The translations under genes and the position numbers were made by a program. Positions 51,598 through 57,600 of a DNA stretch of 64,000 nt are shown piece by piece. Positions within the stretch are counted from its first letter, which is position 1, and every line of letters starts with the position of its first letter. The notes below the pieces were generated by a model. It was not told where the DNA came from. It saw only the letters and a program-made list of their open reading frames with translations, and made no database searches. The DNA comes from Haliscomenobacter hydrossis DSM 1100 (GTDB lineage: Bacteria > Bacteroidota > Bacteroidia > Chitinophagales > Saprospiraceae). The DNA lies in assembly GCF_000212735.1 (NCBI RefSeq), contig NC_015510.1:7875001-7939000 (forward strand). Reading direction: 5' to 3'.

Positions 51598-53586
51598 TCA
51601 CTCTACAACCCGAAACGCAGTCCTGCGATTCAACTGGTGCTCATCCTCACTACATCTCGCGCAAGCGCAAGTTGCCTCAGGCACTCCTTCGCCGTAGCCG
51701 CGTGCTTCCAGACGTTGCGCTTCAATCCCTTTGCTGATCAGGTAATCCACGGCAGATTGCGCTCGTTTTTGCGACAAAGACTCGTTGTACACATCCGTGC
51801 CTCGACAATCCGTATGTGAGGAGAGTTGAATTCTGACTTTTGGGTTCAATTTGAGGGTTTCAGCCAGTTTATCCAAAGTTGGTTGGGCATCGGCACGGAT
51901 GTCCCATTTGTCCAGATCATAATAAATGTTCTCCAGGCGGATTTCTTTGTCGAGGTAGATTTTGTCAAGGACAATCTCTATTTCAAAAATCTGCTCGGGG
52001 TTTTTGGGATCTTTGGCGATGCCTTTGGTGGAAAATTTGGCAGAATTGTTGAGGTAGCCCGGGTGCGAGGCCAGAAAATTGTAATCGAGGTTCTCGGAAA
52101 GTTCCAGGCGGAAATGCCCTTCGGCGTCCACGGTGATGGTTTCGGTTTTGTTGCCAATTTTGATGTCCACCTTGGATTCGGGTAGCGGTTTGCGGCCTAG
52201 CACCTTACTGTTGGGGTTGTTGGCGTCCTGGAAGATTTTTTCCAGCACAAAACCATCTAGGATCAGCTTGGCCTTAGGTTCTTCCTTTGGGCGCTCCGCT
52301 ACGGGCGGCGGGGGAGGAGGAGGTACATAACGCCGCTCAAAAGTATAAATGTCGTCGTTGCCTTGGCCCTCGCTGCGGCTGGAAGTGAAATAGCCCATGC
52401 TGGTGACCCCCGAGTCGCGTTTGGACTGGTAGTCAACCAGAAAGCCAAAATCATCGCCCATGGAGTTGATCGGGGGCTTGAGGTTGAAGGCAGGTGCCCA
52501 GTCACCATTTTTGAGGCGATAGGTTTTGAAAATATCCAGGCCACCCATGCCCGGATGGGTATCGGAGGAAAAATAGAGGGTATCGTTGTCGAGGCTAGGG
52601 AAAAGTTCATCACCCAGGGTATTGATGGTTCGGGGCAGAAGTTTGGGTTCCGTCCATTCGCTGCCAACGCGCTCGCTCATCCAAATATCGTGTCCTCCCC
52701 AACCGTCGGGGTGAAGCGCGGAATAGTAGAGCGTTTTTCCATCAGCCGAAAGGCAAGGCTGTCCGTAATTGATGCCCGCTTGCTGGAAACTCAGGGGTTC
52801 GGGAGCAATCCAGGAGGTGCCATCAAATACACTGTGCATGATTTTGCAGAATTGATCTTCCTTTTTAGTGCCAGTACAACGGGTGAAAAACACTTCGGTG
52901 AAGTTGGCATTGAAGGTGGCGGTACCCTCATTGGCCATCGTATTGATGGCGGCGCTAAAATTGCTGGCATCGCCAGTCTGGGTGTTTACCGCAAAAAGGT
53001 CGCTGAAGTCATTGCCCGTCCAGGCGTAGACTTTTTTGTCGCCCGTCGCTGTGGCGCGATCAGAGGTAATGACCAGTTGATCTTTAAAAAACACCGGGGC
53101 ATAATCGGCGTATTTGGAGTTGAAGGTGGCGGGTTCGACGGAGTATTCGGGTGTTTTGATTTTTTTCCAGCCTTCGGCCACGTCACAGGCGGCAATTTCT
53201 TTGCGGTATTCGTAAGGGCTACCAATTTCAATACCCAGGTTTTTGTAGGCCTCTTTGGCATCGGCGTAGCGTCCGGCCATTTTGAGGGCTTGGGCCATTT
53301 CTTTGAGGGCATCGGTGCCTGCCTGGTTGTCGTAGGCTTTTTGAAACCAGTCGATGGCCTGTTCACTTTGGTTGGTTGCTTTGAGGGATAAGCCGAGCAT
53401 GTAAGCAATTTTTCCTTTTTCGAGGCGGGTTTTGGCCTTGTTGAACTCTTTTTGCAGGAGCCCCACGGCTACTTTGTATTGTTTGGCCTCATAGGCGGTT
53501 TTGCCGTCGCGCACCTGATTGGCTACACTACACGCGCTAAGCAAAAAAAGCAAGGATAAACTGATAACAGAAAAAATAGCCTTCAT
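51598..53586 (-). CDS. PorE-like lipoprotein: TPR, WD40-type propeller, CarbopepD_reg domain and OmpA domain
   Basis: The 662-aa product has a lipobox (SLLFLLSACSVANQVRDGK), TPR repeats (residues 20-130), a PD40/WD40-like propeller (about 165-410; YYSALHPDGWGGHDIWMSE, YFSSDTHPGMGGLDIFKTY), a carboxypeptidase-regulatory-like domain (about 440-540) and an OmpA-like peptidoglycan-binding domain at the end (IYYDLDKWDIRADAQPTLDK, IQLSSHTDCRGTDVYNESLS). This order is that of PorE of the type IX secretion system, which ties the PorKN ring to peptidoglycan. Paralogues without a secretion role also exist in this group, so the T9SS assignment is likely but not proved. Confidence 0.87.
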   Translation of the reverse strand: MKAIFSVISLSLLFLLSACSVANQVRDGKTAYEAKQYKVAVGLLQKEFNKAKTRLEKGKIAYMLGLSLKATNQSEQAIDWFQKAYDNQAGTDALKEMAQALKMAGRYADAKEAYKNLGIEIGSPYEYRKEIAACDVAEGWKKIKTPEYSVEPATFNSKYADYAPVFFKDQLVITSDRATATGDKKVYAWTGNDFSDLFAVNTQTGDASNFSAAINTMANEGTATFNANFTEVFFTRCTGTKKEDQFCKIMHSVFDGTSWIAPEPLSFQQAGINYGQPCLSADGKTLYYSALHPDGWGGHDIWMSERVGSEWTEPKLLPRTINTLGDELFPSLDNDTLYFSSDTHPGMGGLDIFKTYRLKNGDWAPAFNLKPPINSMGDDFGFLVDYQSKRDSGVTSMGYFTSSRSEGQGNDDIYTFERRYVPPPPPPPVAERPKEEPKAKLILDGFVLEKIFQDANNPNSKVLGRKPLPESKVDIKIGNKTETITVDAEGHFRLELSENLDYNFLASHPGYLNNSAKFSTKGIAKDPKNPEQIFEIEIVLDKIYLDKEIRLENIYYDLDKWDIRADAQPTLDKLAETLKLNPKVRIQLSSHTDCRGTDVYNESLSQKRAQSAVDYLISKGIEAQRLEARGYGEGVPEATCACARCSEDEHQLNRRTAFRVVE

Positions 53587-53737
53587 ACGATCGTTTTGTG
53601 ACGGGAATATAAGAAAAACGTAGAAAAGGGTGGAAGAGTTTATTGGTCGTTGGCGTTACAATTGCTGAAAAAGGAAAAAGTGCTTGACTTAAACACTTTT
53701 TTGTGTTAACTTTATTTTTTATCAAAAAATTTAAAGG

Positions 53738-53973
53738 ATGGATGCAAAGTCAAAAAAAGCAATCATAAACCTTGGAATTAGTGAAGAAGTGCTTCAACGA
53801 TACCTTATGTTGCTGAAAAAAGAGACAGGGAACAATTGACATCGGATGAACACGAAGAATTGATTGCGATTTCGGATGAAATAGAAATTGCAAATGCCGA
53901 AAGAGTAAGAAAACTTGTTGAGAAGGGCTTAATGACATTGGATTACAGGGAGAGGCTAAGAAAAATTGATTAG
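53738..53973 (+). pseudogene. Frameshifted small antitoxin-like gene
   Basis: The first frame (MDAKSKKAIINLGISEEVLQ, 33 aa) stops at 53839. The next frame carries on with KRDREQLTSDEHEELIAISD, then EIEIANAERVRKLVEKGLMT, to a TAG at 53971-53973. The joined product would be about 77 aa and resembles small helical proteins that often precede HNH or PIN-type genes, as I recall it; the link is tentative. The last codons overlap the left inverted repeat of the DUF559 element (53966), so insertion may have trimmed the end. A promoter-like TTG-N20-TAACTTTA lies just upstream. Confidence 0.55.
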
Positions 53974-54618
53974 TTGTTGATATTGAACATTTTGCAAAAG
54001 TTGAACAACCCCCGACCCCTAAAGGGGAGTACATTTGAGGTAAGCACAAATACCAATCGGTTTCCCAAATGACGACAATTATTTTTCTAAAATTTGGATG
54101 ATAGTACCCAAGACTGATGGTAAGTTCGTTAAAATATCTTGATTTGTGAACCTTAGTTCTTTGATCCCAGCTTGATATAATAGTTCTGTTCTTGCTCGAT
54201 CATATAGTTGCTGTTCTTGCTCTAAGTGATACTCGCCATCAATCTCAATGGCAAGTTTAGCCGCATGACAATAAAAGTCAAGAATAAATATTCCAACAGG
54301 ATGCTGTCTCCTGAATTTATAGCCTTTCAATTTTTTGTTTCTCAATTCTTCCCACAAAGCACTCTCTGCTGGTGTTGAATTTACCCTATTTTGCTTTGCA
54401 AATTCAAAATTTCTAGTCAATGCACCATAGTACATTTCAAGTTGGTCATTTTGTTTGGCCATTTTAGTATGGTTTCGTGAACGAATTAATATTCCAAGTT
54501 GTCAAAAATGTATTTTTTTACAAAAAGCAAGACTTTAGACCTACCTAAAATGTGCTCCCCTTTAGGGGTCGGGGGTTGTTCAACTTTTGCAAAATGTTCA
54601 ATATCAACAACTAATCAA
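53966..54618. mobile_element. Putative DUF559 element bounded by 78-bp inverted repeats
   Basis: The left arm 53966-54043 (TTGATTAGTTGTTGATATTG...) and the right arm 54541-54618 are inverted copies differing at only a few positions. Each arm contains a small hairpin CCCC-TAAA-GGGG next to CCCCCGA. The only gene inside is the minus-strand DUF559 gene. No clear target duplication is seen at the ends (A-rich on both sides). This is a self-contained 653-bp unit: a nuclease-type gene in a cage of palindromes. The mobility is inferred, not shown. Confidence 0.75.
54079..54462 (-). CDS. DUF559 (PD-(D/E)xK/Vsr-like) endonuclease-domain protein
   Basis: The 127-aa product matches DUF559: STPAESALWEELRNKKLKGY, KFRRQHPVGIFILDFYCHAA, KLAIEIDGEYHLEQEQQLYD, RARTELLYQAGIKELRFTNQ. 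The acidic residues of ILDFYC and AIEIDG correspond to a PD-(D/E)xK-like nuclease core related to very-short-patch-repair (Vsr) enzymes. It has no signal peptide. The gene is the sole cargo between two 78-bp inverted repeats. Its activity has not been defined in the literature I know. Start MAKQNDQLEMYYGAL is the first Met. Confidence 0.88.
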   Translation of the reverse strand: MAKQNDQLEMYYGALTRNFEFAKQNRVNSTPAESALWEELRNKKLKGYKFRRQHPVGIFILDFYCHAAKLAIEIDGEYHLEQEQQLYDRARTELLYQAGIKELRFTNQDILTNLPSVLGTIIQILEK

Positions 54619-54698
54619 AAAATATGAAGGAATAGCAACAAAAAACCGGTAGCCAAGCTTGCGCTCAACCACCGGTTCGGTATATTCAAAAGATACAA

Positions 54699-57600
54699 TT
54701 ACACTTTGGCTACAGCTTTGTTGCTGCCTTTGCCCTTGCCGTCTTCTTCGGCATTGCTGCGGGTAGCAAAGTTTGCATCCAGGTAGTCGCCCTTGGTCAG
54801 GTCGGCTACAATTGGAGAAGCAATGAAGATAGAAGAGTAAGTACCAAATACTACGCCCAACATCATGGCGAAGGCAAAACCTTTGATGCTGGTTCCTCCG
54901 AAGAAGAACAGGATCAATACCGTAAGGAAAACCGTCATCGAAGTAATGATGGTACGGCTCAGCGTACTGTTGATGGCAGCATTGATCAGGTCGTTCTTTT
55001 TCATGGTCGGGAACTTGTGGATGTATTCCCGGATCCGGTCAAATACAATTACCGTATCGTTGATGGAATAACCCAACAAGGTCAGAATCGCTGCGATGAA
55101 CGCCTGGTCGATCTCCATGTTGAACGGCAAAATGCCATGAAACAGGGCAAACGCACCGATGGCAATCGTGGCGTCGTGGATCAAGGCAATGATACCGCCC
55201 AATCCGTACTTCGCTTTGCTGAAACGCAAGAAGATGTAGAGGAAGATACCCAGCAGACCGAACAAGCCAGCCTTCCAGGAACTCCGTGAAATGTCGTCGG
55301 CAATGGTTGGATCTACTTTACCAGAACTGGTAATGTGGGTACCAGTACCATCAGGGGATTTGAAGTTTTCTTCCTCCAAATTACCACCGGCCAGTTTATT
55401 TACCCCGGCGAACAATTTGGCCGTAGCGCGATCCTGTGCGTCATCAGCAGTATCGTCGATGAGGTAACTGGTTACCACGTTCAAGGTATTGTCGCTGTCA
55501 ACTACTTTTACCACTGGCGTGCGGCCAAATTCAGCAGTAAGCGATTGGCGCAATGCCTCTGCATCCACTGTTTTTTCAAACTGGATATTGTAAGAATAAC
55601 CCCCTTTGAAATCAACCCCAAGGTCGAAACCACGCACCAGAATAGCAATGATGCTGATGACGACAAACACCGCCGAGATGGCATAGGAAATTTTGCGGAT
55701 GCCCATCCAGTCTACATTCTGGTTGAGCAGGGTGTGAGAAGACCAAGGGTAGCTGAAGCTCATGCTGCGGCCTTTTTTCTCCGTCCAATATTCTACCATC
55801 ATGCGGCTCACCAAAATCCCCGTAAAGAGGGTCGTGGCAATACCCAACATCAATACGATGGCAAAACCTTTGATCGGGCCCAAACCGAATACCGCCAGGG
55901 CGATACCTACGATGAAGGTGGTAAGGTTACCGTCGATGATGGCGCTAGCGGCGTGTTTAAAACCGGCCTGAATGGCATCACGAAGTCCCAGACCGGAACG
56001 CAATTCTTCCCGGATGCGCTCGTAAATGATTACGTTGGCGTCAACGGCCATACCGATGGTCAGTACGATACCGGCTATACCGGGCAGGGTGAGTACCGTA
56101 CCCAAGGAAGCCATGGCACCCAGCAACAAGAAGATGTTGATGATCAAGGCCAGGATGGCGACTATACCACCACCAGCGTAATAGGCGACCATGAAGGCCA
56201 AAATCGACAAGAAGGTAATCACCAAGGTACCAAAACCTTTATTGATGTTTGAAGCACCGAGGGATGGCCCGATTACCGATTCCTGAATGATGCGGGTTTC
56301 AGCGGGCAGTTTACCTACTTCCAGGAGGTTGGCCAAATCTGTGGCTTCTTCCAGGTTGAAACTACCGGAAATTTGTGAGCTACCCCCAGTAATGGGTTCG
56401 TTCACACCGGGACAAGAAATTACTTCGTCATCGAGGACGATGGCAATTTCGCGGTTGTTGTCCTGAGCGGCTTTGGTGGTCATGGCGGCCCAGGTTTTGG
56501 CCCCTTCGCCATCCATCCGCAGTGAAACTACAATTTTACCCGAGTTCTGATCCGAGTCTTCAAAAGCCTGGATCACGTGGTCACCATTGAGTGGTGCCTG
56601 GCTGCGATTGCCTTCTTTTTTGAGGGCGTACAGCTCGTATACGTTGGTTGGCTTCTTGGTGGTTGGATCCGTAATTGGATCTTTTGACCAGGCGAAAGTC
56701 AGATCTCTTGGAAACTGTGCTTTAGCCTCTGGGCGCGCCAACATGGTATCGATGATTGCTTTACGGTTCTTCTCTGCATAACCCATTAGCGCGGGCGCTG
56801 TACCTTGGGTATTGATTTGCAGTACTTCGAGTAGTGGGTTGTCAGCAGGGCGTTGTACGATGCTGTCCCAGGTCCATTTGTTTTTTGCCAATGCATTGCC
56901 GAGTGAGTCTACTTTGACGATACCGATGGTGTCTGAGCGCGTCTTGCCCGTACCCATCGTTTTAGCCAAAGCCTCGTTTGCAGCAATAAATCCTTCGATC
57001 ACTTGTTTGCTGCTGGAAGCATTCGGGTTGATCGGGTCGCTGAGGCGATAGATGTTCCAGAACTCCAAACGGGCAGCTTTTCCGAGGAAATCACGGGCAC
57101 GTTGAGGGTTGTCGATACCAGGCAATTCCACCAGGATCAAGGCCCGGGCGTTGTCCAAAGACACGTTTGGTCCAGTTACCCCTAATTTGTCGATCCTTTC
57201 TTTCAACAAACGGAAAGTCAGTTCAGCGGTTTGATCGGCTTTTTGCTTCAGCACACCAATGACCTTTTGATTGGGGTCACCAGATTTGATTTCCTCTTTC
57301 AAGGCATCGTTGCGAGAAAACAAGTTTGCCAATGGTTTGTCACCACTGATTTCACGGTACGCTCTTGCAAAAAGCGTAACGTAGTTGTCTTGGGTTGTGC
57401 GCTGATCCTGCGTCGCTTTTTTCAAAGCGCGCTCAAATTCTGATTCTGGATCCGCTGAGTTAGCGGCAAGTGAACGGATGAAATCTTCCAAGTCAACTTG
57501 TAAGACCACACTCATACCCCCCTTCAGGTCCAAACCCATCGCCAACTGTTGACCCTTCAAATCCTGATAGGTGTACTTTTTCAGTCCCTTGAGATCGAAG

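Follow-up and report, generated by a model that had tools for sequence, protein, structure and literature searches.

The window, i.e. the whole stretch of 64,000 nucleotides of Haliscomenobacter hydrossis DSM 1100 DNA that was analysed, contains at 53966..54618 a cassette of 653 bp in which a DUF559 (putatively Vsr-like) nuclease gene of 127 aa (54079..54462, minus strand) is placed between two inverted arms. The left arm (53966..54043, plus strand), to which dispersed copies are related, is a palindrome with an outer C5 block that reads CCCCCGA-CCCC-TAAA-GGGG, and the right arm (54541..54618, minus strand) is its inverted copy. The inverted arms around a single gene, as reported in the preliminary description of this DNA, are real: they are 77-78 nt long, 97% complementary as inverted copies and separated by 491-499 nt, and 54079-54462 on the minus strand is the one substantial ORF between them. 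The CCCC-TAAA-GGGG motif ascribed to each arm is also present, as CCCCTAAAGGGG at 54016..54027 in the left arm and as CCCCTTTAGGGG at 54557..54568 in the right arm, and the window has no further exact copy. As a folding structure the hairpin fared less well, since its stem has 4 bp and the single-stranded arms fold no better than shuffled sequences (z -0.36 and -0.05); the case for the arms is therefore built on their repetition and their association with the gene, not on hairpin energy. Reading the cassette as an RNA family was rejected, as an Rfam search of 53500-55000 gave no match up to E=1. A broken small gene (53738..53973, plus strand) in two pieces of different frames overlaps the cassette with its end: the ORF 53836-53973 terminates within the left arm, and the putative 5' part begins at 53738 in another frame and meets a stop after 33 aa.

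The sole gene inside the cassette had been called a DUF559 gene, and the protein matches PF04480 (DUF559) at 109.5 bits and E=1e-31 (cut-off 20.6), which bears this out. In an alignment of 48 DUF559 sequences (the window protein, placed first, and those of 47 of the 80 multi-phylum loci described below), the residues E33, K49-H54, D62, F63, E73, D75, G76 and H79 are invariant. Searched against solved structures, the profile of these 48 sequences matches 3hrl, an endonuclease-like protein (3.3e-38), and the mobile intron protein 3r3p (E=1.5e-5), which we take to be a Vsr-like homing endonuclease of a mobile intron. Matches to defence families in PADLOC are partial (DpdF 5e-9 over 50 residues) and those to phage families in PHROG are weak. 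The available text of PMC1189080 assigns the family member YcjD to the PD-(D/E)XK superfamily, near Vsr. Between the window gene and its copy in G151, a genome of the same genus, dN/dS is 0.088 (127 codons, a rough estimate), which indicates purifying selection on the window nuclease.

BLAST of the left arm against the H. hydrossis genome (8.77 Mb, four contigs) gave at least 66 matches, a copy number far beyond chance; 40 of 57 first-look candidates were scored, and further copies may exist. Among these matches are 30 inverted pairs and 6 unpaired copies. The spacer measures 38-62 bp in 29 of the 30 pairs, and only the window pair holds a DUF559 gene, which is also the single DUF559 match in the genome. 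In alignment, the gene-less pairs L013 and L008 correspond to the cassette with about 54040-54513 removed, except for one 8- or 13-nt block, and thus equal the cassette without its gene; their alignment restarts at 54514, so that the inner stretch 54514..54540 beside the right arm is retained by gene-less copies. The solo copies of the arm that the preliminary description proposed to look for thus exist as 29 gene-less inverted pairs, and the refuting view that it named, arms that are terminators unique to this locus, fails on the point of uniqueness, since related copies are present elsewhere.

Gene-less pairs fall into those inside elements bearing IS4-type ends (19/29) and those without such ends (10/29). 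In H. hydrossis, CTGTCGATTACCCACAAATCC or a near variant of it forms the ends of 24 elements of 231-247 bp, 19 of which enclose a palindrome pair; a 1.55-kb insertion sequence with these ends encodes a 462-aa protein that matches PF14706, a transposase DNA-binding family; we take this insertion sequence to be of the IS4 type. One copy of it lies at G000:C1:2285673-2287221, with four further 1.5-kb copies in the genome, and the 231-247-bp elements look like a MITE family that captured another repeat, the palindrome pair. Because 19 of the 29 pairs sit within IS-ended elements, IS-borne amplification is layered on the palindrome in H. hydrossis, and much of the gene-less copy number there may be the work of the IS4-type transposase. 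The window cassette itself lacks the IS4-type end CTGTC(A/G)ATTACCCACAAA(T/A)CC with up to 3 mismatches allowed. By eye, many of the short elements L011-L026 are flanked by ACCTTAGACACCTTAG-like runs, which look like a further degenerate repeat used as a target.

In G151 the 653-bp cassette occupies the same place in inverted orientation and is 93% identical to that of the window, compared with 84% for the flanks; G151 is a draft of 420 contigs in which inverted repeats can mislead assembly, and the inversion is provisional. The dS between the two genomes is 0.23 for the nuclease gene and 1.36 for a neighbour gene (127 codons, rough). A second relative, G125, lacks window positions 53650-54639, i.e. 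the small gene together with the cassette, and has about 25 bp there instead, the gap being inexact at the cassette ends. Neither G018 nor G125 has a DUF559 match at E<=1e-10. The small gene survives as a shortened remnant in G151, and this, with the 33-aa 5' piece in another frame, makes its earlier description as a broken gene overlapped by the cassette a fair one. From the inversion and low dS in G151 and the absence in G125, it is most likely that the cassette moved or was exchanged after H. hydrossis, G151 and G125 separated as species. No target duplication was seen. Genome G042 has two 618-bp cassettes, 97.6% identical and 1.8 kb apart (L152, G042:C2:20050-22450); both carry one in-frame TAG in the DUF559 match, possibly a dead copy that was duplicated. 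In five genomes with 17 DUF559 loci, cassettes at different places had no mutual match at E<=1e-20, with near-by duplicates in G208, G210 and G042 as exceptions; hence the gene-bearing form does not seem to amplify freely, and free amplification was dropped as an explanation.

The pairing of DUF559 genes with such palindromes recurs in other genomes. A Saprospiraceae set was made of 60 loci (L101-L160) among the 70 DUF559 matches listed, leaving out the window gene, the second G042 copy (within L152) and the eight weakest matches. The density of CCCC-N3..7-GGGG at these loci is 1.6-2.7/kb up to 300 bp from the gene and 0.01-0.07/kb beyond 1 kb, compared with 0-0.34/kb and 0-0.03/kb for the reversed-motif control. 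A multi-phylum set comprised the best 80 of at least 581 confirmed DUF559 loci found with one peptide pattern, from records of Alpha-, Beta- and Gammaproteobacteria, Anaerolineae, Armatimonadetes, Candidatus Uhrbacteria and others. Within 150 bp of these genes, C-type hairpins, typically CCCTCTCCC-loop-GGGAGAGGG, reach 4.8/kb upstream (52 loci) and 5.6/kb downstream (54 loci) and fall to 0.04-0.18/kb beyond 1 kb; G-type control hairpins stand at 0.17 and 0 per kb within 150 bp. Some flank bins were shortened by contig ends. Hairpins with a stem of at least 6 stand within 160 bp on both sides of the gene at 19 of 29 Bacteroidia loci and on a single side at 7, against a far density of 11 hairpins in 62 kb (29 of 30 loci were used; L177, where the motif was not found, was dropped).

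The left and right arms of one gene also match each other as inverted copies, with a score of 32.0 compared with 16.0 for swapped partners in the 80-locus set (50 loci testable) and 21.5 compared with 11.3 in the Saprospiraceae set (24 of 60 testable); in each set 0 of 2000 permutations reached the observed score. Saprospiraceae flanks match better still in direct orientation (27.0; 11.5 with others) than inverted (21.5), because some genes, e.g. those of G042, lie between whole palindrome pairs. In genome G088 a DUF559 gene (L047) has to either side of it a long array in which C-run hairpins of two types, CCCCTAAAAGGGG and CCCCCTCCCAGGGGG, alternate. The association of DUF559 with these palindromes is strong and extends across phyla, which answers with a clear yes the question whether the two go together beyond the window. 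CGTC-type palindromes gave 1 match within 600 bp at the 80 loci, a set that does not contain the window, and DUF559 was therefore rejected as the missing enzyme of the CGTC-tagged REPs (known to us from the available part of PMC3733652).

Many of these palindromes resemble a known repeat. The TM, earlier called PIT, is described in the available text of PMC4666352 as a G/C-rich intrastrand triplex motif, CCCTCNCCC-N3..6-GGGNGAGGG-N3-GGGNGAGGG; the same text reports that no transposase, integrase or other mobility gene was found alongside TM sites and cites earlier work in which TM motifs had neither promoter nor terminator activity. Allowing up to 3 mismatches and laxer loops, the TM consensus was found within 300 bp of DUF559 at 48 of the 80 loci, with a density of 3.4-4.1/kb within 150 bp and 0.02-0.10/kb beyond 1 kb. 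Upstream copies are mostly forward (30:11) and downstream copies mostly reverse (33:16). By a freer measure, 46 of the 156 C-type hairpins around these genes lack a third block, and 16/156 and 15/156 shuffled flanks on the two sides pass the same measure. The window arms fail the strict TM consensus, having CCCC-TAAA-GGGG with an outer C5/G5 block; judged by this sequence they are a divergent form of the TM-like palindrome with a C4/G4 core.

In E. coli K-12, TM number 9 is located at 1351204-1351239 according to the part of PMC4666352 available. The gene ycjD (1351407-1351760), annotated as DUF559, lies 167 bp from this TM, which is one of 23 TM copies in K-12. Seen by eye, a second, imperfect TM-like palindrome (L301:1896-1922) overlaps the 3' end of ycjD. 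Of 5426 E. coli genomes, 3362 cover at least 80% of the ycjD stretch. In two strains without ycjD whose fabI region was inspected, its place is taken by genes for a TetR-type regulator and an RND adaptor, which in the available text of PMC12817139 belong to the eef operon; a clean empty site of ycjD in E. coli was discarded for this reason.

Co-occurrence was also seen at the level of whole genomes. In 395 Bacteroidia genomes, with DUF559 presence defined as E<=1e-15, CCCTCTCC-N3..8-GGAGAGGG reaches five or more copies in 59 of the 153 genomes that have DUF559, compared with 10 of the 242 that lack it; these 10 have up to 42 hairpins. After removal of two hairpins per DUF559 gene the counts are 46/153 and 10/242. 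In within-family permutations, 0 of 5000 reached the contrast at five or more hairpins and 1 of 5000 reached the hairpin total. H. hydrossis enters this comparison as a DUF559 genome with zero such hairpins, since its palindrome differs. The control read backwards gave 0 or 1 per genome for this pattern and, for a 9-bp-stem pattern, zero in 12 of 12 genomes tried. Loci of Y1_Tnp genes (RAYT-type) served as a second control, with 56 matches in 15 genomes, from which 20 loci were taken and 15, in 11 genomes, were usable, 5 being incomplete. No enrichment of C-type hairpins was found there (0.11/kb near, 0.15/kb far; one hairpin within 300 bp of the 15 usable loci), whereas other hairpins are enriched (3.0/kb near, 1.26/kb far). 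Within this material, the C-type palindromes accompany DUF559 genes but not Y1 genes. Y1 matches were present in all 15 genomes tested, two of them weak, and help from Y1 transposases to the palindromes is therefore possible. H. hydrossis itself has a Y1 gene (L331, G000:C1:5841005-5841334) flanked on either side by inverted CGGCGGAT hairpins that match each other; this looks like a regular REP/RAYT system existing beside the DUF559 cassette system.

DUF559 is often found inside conserved protein genes, lying within open frames of at least 350 aa in 79 of the best 150 of 325 Bacteroidia matches and in 5 of the 70 Saprospiraceae matches listed. Aligned to solved structures, isoleucyl-tRNA synthetase, MnmE and methionine synthase are each seen to be interrupted by the DUF559 part. 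When 20 proteins were scanned with NCBIfam, the hosts were leuS (8), metH (7), ileS (1), hsdR (1) and recG (1); in the other two, one was purQ with DUF559 past the end of the match and L161 had no host name. One more ileS and one more metH host were named by NCBIfam besides these 20. In all 10 genomes checked, of which 8 are at least 90% complete, no leuS besides the interrupted one was found at E<=1e-60; its product must therefore function either with the insert in frame or after a processing step that escaped our view. The hairpins are translated through as Pro/Gly-rich stretches, and neither intron nor intein was seen at the insertions, the DUF559 part remaining in the frame of the host protein.

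One place in metH was followed through 13 genomes of genus g140, presumably Flavobacterium, with boundaries read in 6 besides G369 and with G420 left out. The place is empty in G463, G484, G395 and G284, bears short palindromic remnants in G503 and G215, and holds a full cassette in G369, which ends in GACCTCACCCC...GGGGTGAGGTC, the host sequence starting again about 20 bp further on; in G171, G251, G343, G198 and G217 the metH alignment continues through the insert. The nuclease of G369 shares 49-50% identity with its counterparts in G171 and G251, although the host part is 77-82% identical, while between G171 and G251 the figures are 80% for the nuclease and 82% for the host. This low identity relative to the host reads as at least two independent arrivals at the metH place. 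As for the empty sites that the preliminary description hoped to find in close relatives, those at metH are clean, while the gap at the window place in G125 takes in the small gene as well.

Among known systems, REPtrons (REP/REPIN palindromes with their RAYT, or TnpA_REP) are alike in having an enzyme gene between inverted palindromes whose left and right copies match, and gene-less palindrome pairs scattered in the genome (29 in H. hydrossis). They differ in that their enzyme is a Y1 HUH transposase and not a DUF559 PD-(D/E)XK nuclease, and that DUF559 cassettes are often in frame in conserved genes. Beside the stem, where REPs carry a GTAG tag, the window arms as read have a C5 block. The resemblance to REP/RAYT with a nuclease of another fold, suggested at the outset, is thus supported, and the nuclease itself may drive the movement. 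By its layout the DUF559 cassette is a REP-plus-enzyme arrangement with an unrelated enzyme, and an apparently new pairing: in the literature searched (preprints apart), the texts available held no description of DUF559 paired with palindromic or inverted repeats, and no paper mentioning DUF559 appears, from the portions available, to concern repeats. TM/PIT repeats share with the cassette the consensus at 48 of 80 DUF559 loci and the occurrence as inverted pairs, but the available part of PMC4666352 reports no mobility gene for them, whereas DUF559 is linked to them here. The Vsr-like homing endonucleases of mobile introns (3r3p) are akin in profile (E=1.5e-5) and as mobile genes interrupting conserved genes; DUF559 arms are, by contrast, repeated palindromes, and no intron or intein is seen. 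Occupied and empty alleles and recurrent arrival at the metH site are as expected of a homing endonuclease element, though the window place itself shows only presence, inversion and an inexact gap. Rickettsia palindromic elements and the CGTC-tagged REPs (available text of PMC3733652) likewise place palindromes in frame in protein genes, but the DUF559 insert carries a nuclease gene and the CGTC tag is not near DUF559. The IS4-type MITEs of H. hydrossis hold 19 gene-less arm pairs between their terminal repeats; the window cassette, unlike them, has no such ends and carries its own gene.

We favour, by a modest measure, the interpretation that the cassette is a mobile element of the REP type, in which a Vsr/homing-type PD-(D/E)XK nuclease gene sits in the spacer of a palindrome pair and spreads in homing-like fashion into palindromes; this palindrome family would most likely have the nuclease as its dedicated enzyme. 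Cleavage would take place within the palindromes or next to them, probably while they are single-stranded or extruded during replication, after which break repair or strand transfer would place a copy of the cassette, or of a gene-less pair, at the cut. The outcome would be a homing-like spread into existing palindromes, and recombination between the inverted arms could invert the cassette. This cycle is favoured by the DUF559 profile match to 3hrl and 3r3p and by the position of YcjD near Vsr (available text of PMC1189080). It accounts for a gene placed in the pair spacer and for repeated arrival where solo palindromes also occur, and it explains why no target duplications were seen and why the cassette can be inverted between its arms. 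The chief rival, which we hold to be unlikely, follows the REPtron more closely: the nuclease would excise and insert gene-less pairs as single-strand hairpins, in the way proposed for TnpA_REP, without homing, and the gene-bearing form would stay in place. Gene-less pairs are indeed many and cassettes few, and distant DUF559 cassettes in one genome are unlike each other (17 loci). To our knowledge PD-(D/E)XK nucleases have no strand-joining activity, and the enzyme would therefore need a strand-joining partner; the metH cassettes, moreover, seem to be independent arrivals at one place, which homing fits better.

In a housekeeping or domesticated role, DUF559 would trim or repair DNA at palindromes by Vsr-like processing, the flanking copies marking regulation or origin. 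The low dN/dS agrees with such a role, as does the proposal, in the available part of PMC12907096, that the DUF559 protein VsrA of Caulobacter acts in mismatch repair, but presence and absence, inversion and in-frame insertion at many unrelated places would be odd for a gene of this kind, and we think it improbable. Slightly less probable again is that IS4-type or Y1 transposases move the palindromes with DUF559 as mere cargo. The 19 gene-less pairs with IS4-type ends and the general presence of Y1 matches speak for such a passenger, but ten gene-less pairs lack these ends, the DUF559-palindrome association spans phyla, and the 15 usable Y1 loci (of 56 matches) showed the one C-type hairpin mentioned above. 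Arms that merely served a stand-alone gene as terminators or regulatory stems could explain hairpins close to both gene ends; this is very improbable given in-frame insertions that read through the hairpins, gene-less pairs that are scattered, window arms that are not strong folds, and a TM without promoter or terminator activity in the earlier work reported by the available part of PMC4666352.

Returning to the homing-like spread, a wider claim would be that DUF559 proteins are the dedicated enzymes of palindromes worldwide, TM/PIT included, forming a REP class that homes by a nuclease, without a transposase, and can sit in frame inside essential proteins (leucyl- and isoleucyl-tRNA synthetase, methionine synthase, MnmE, RecG), in one chain with the host; this we offer tentatively, as a possibility somewhat short of even. 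Although TM/PIT repeats were described years ago, no enzyme that spreads them is known, and DUF559, a widespread family, may be the missing partner. The link between them makes both the spread of the repeats and the in vivo role of DUF559 testable in E. coli K-12, with ycjD and TM number 9. The in-frame insertions would mean that essential enzymes carry nuclease domains without splicing, a matter of relevance to the way in which proteins acquire domains. Should the nuclease prove to drive the repeats, bacteria would have a second REP system, with an enzyme of unrelated fold.
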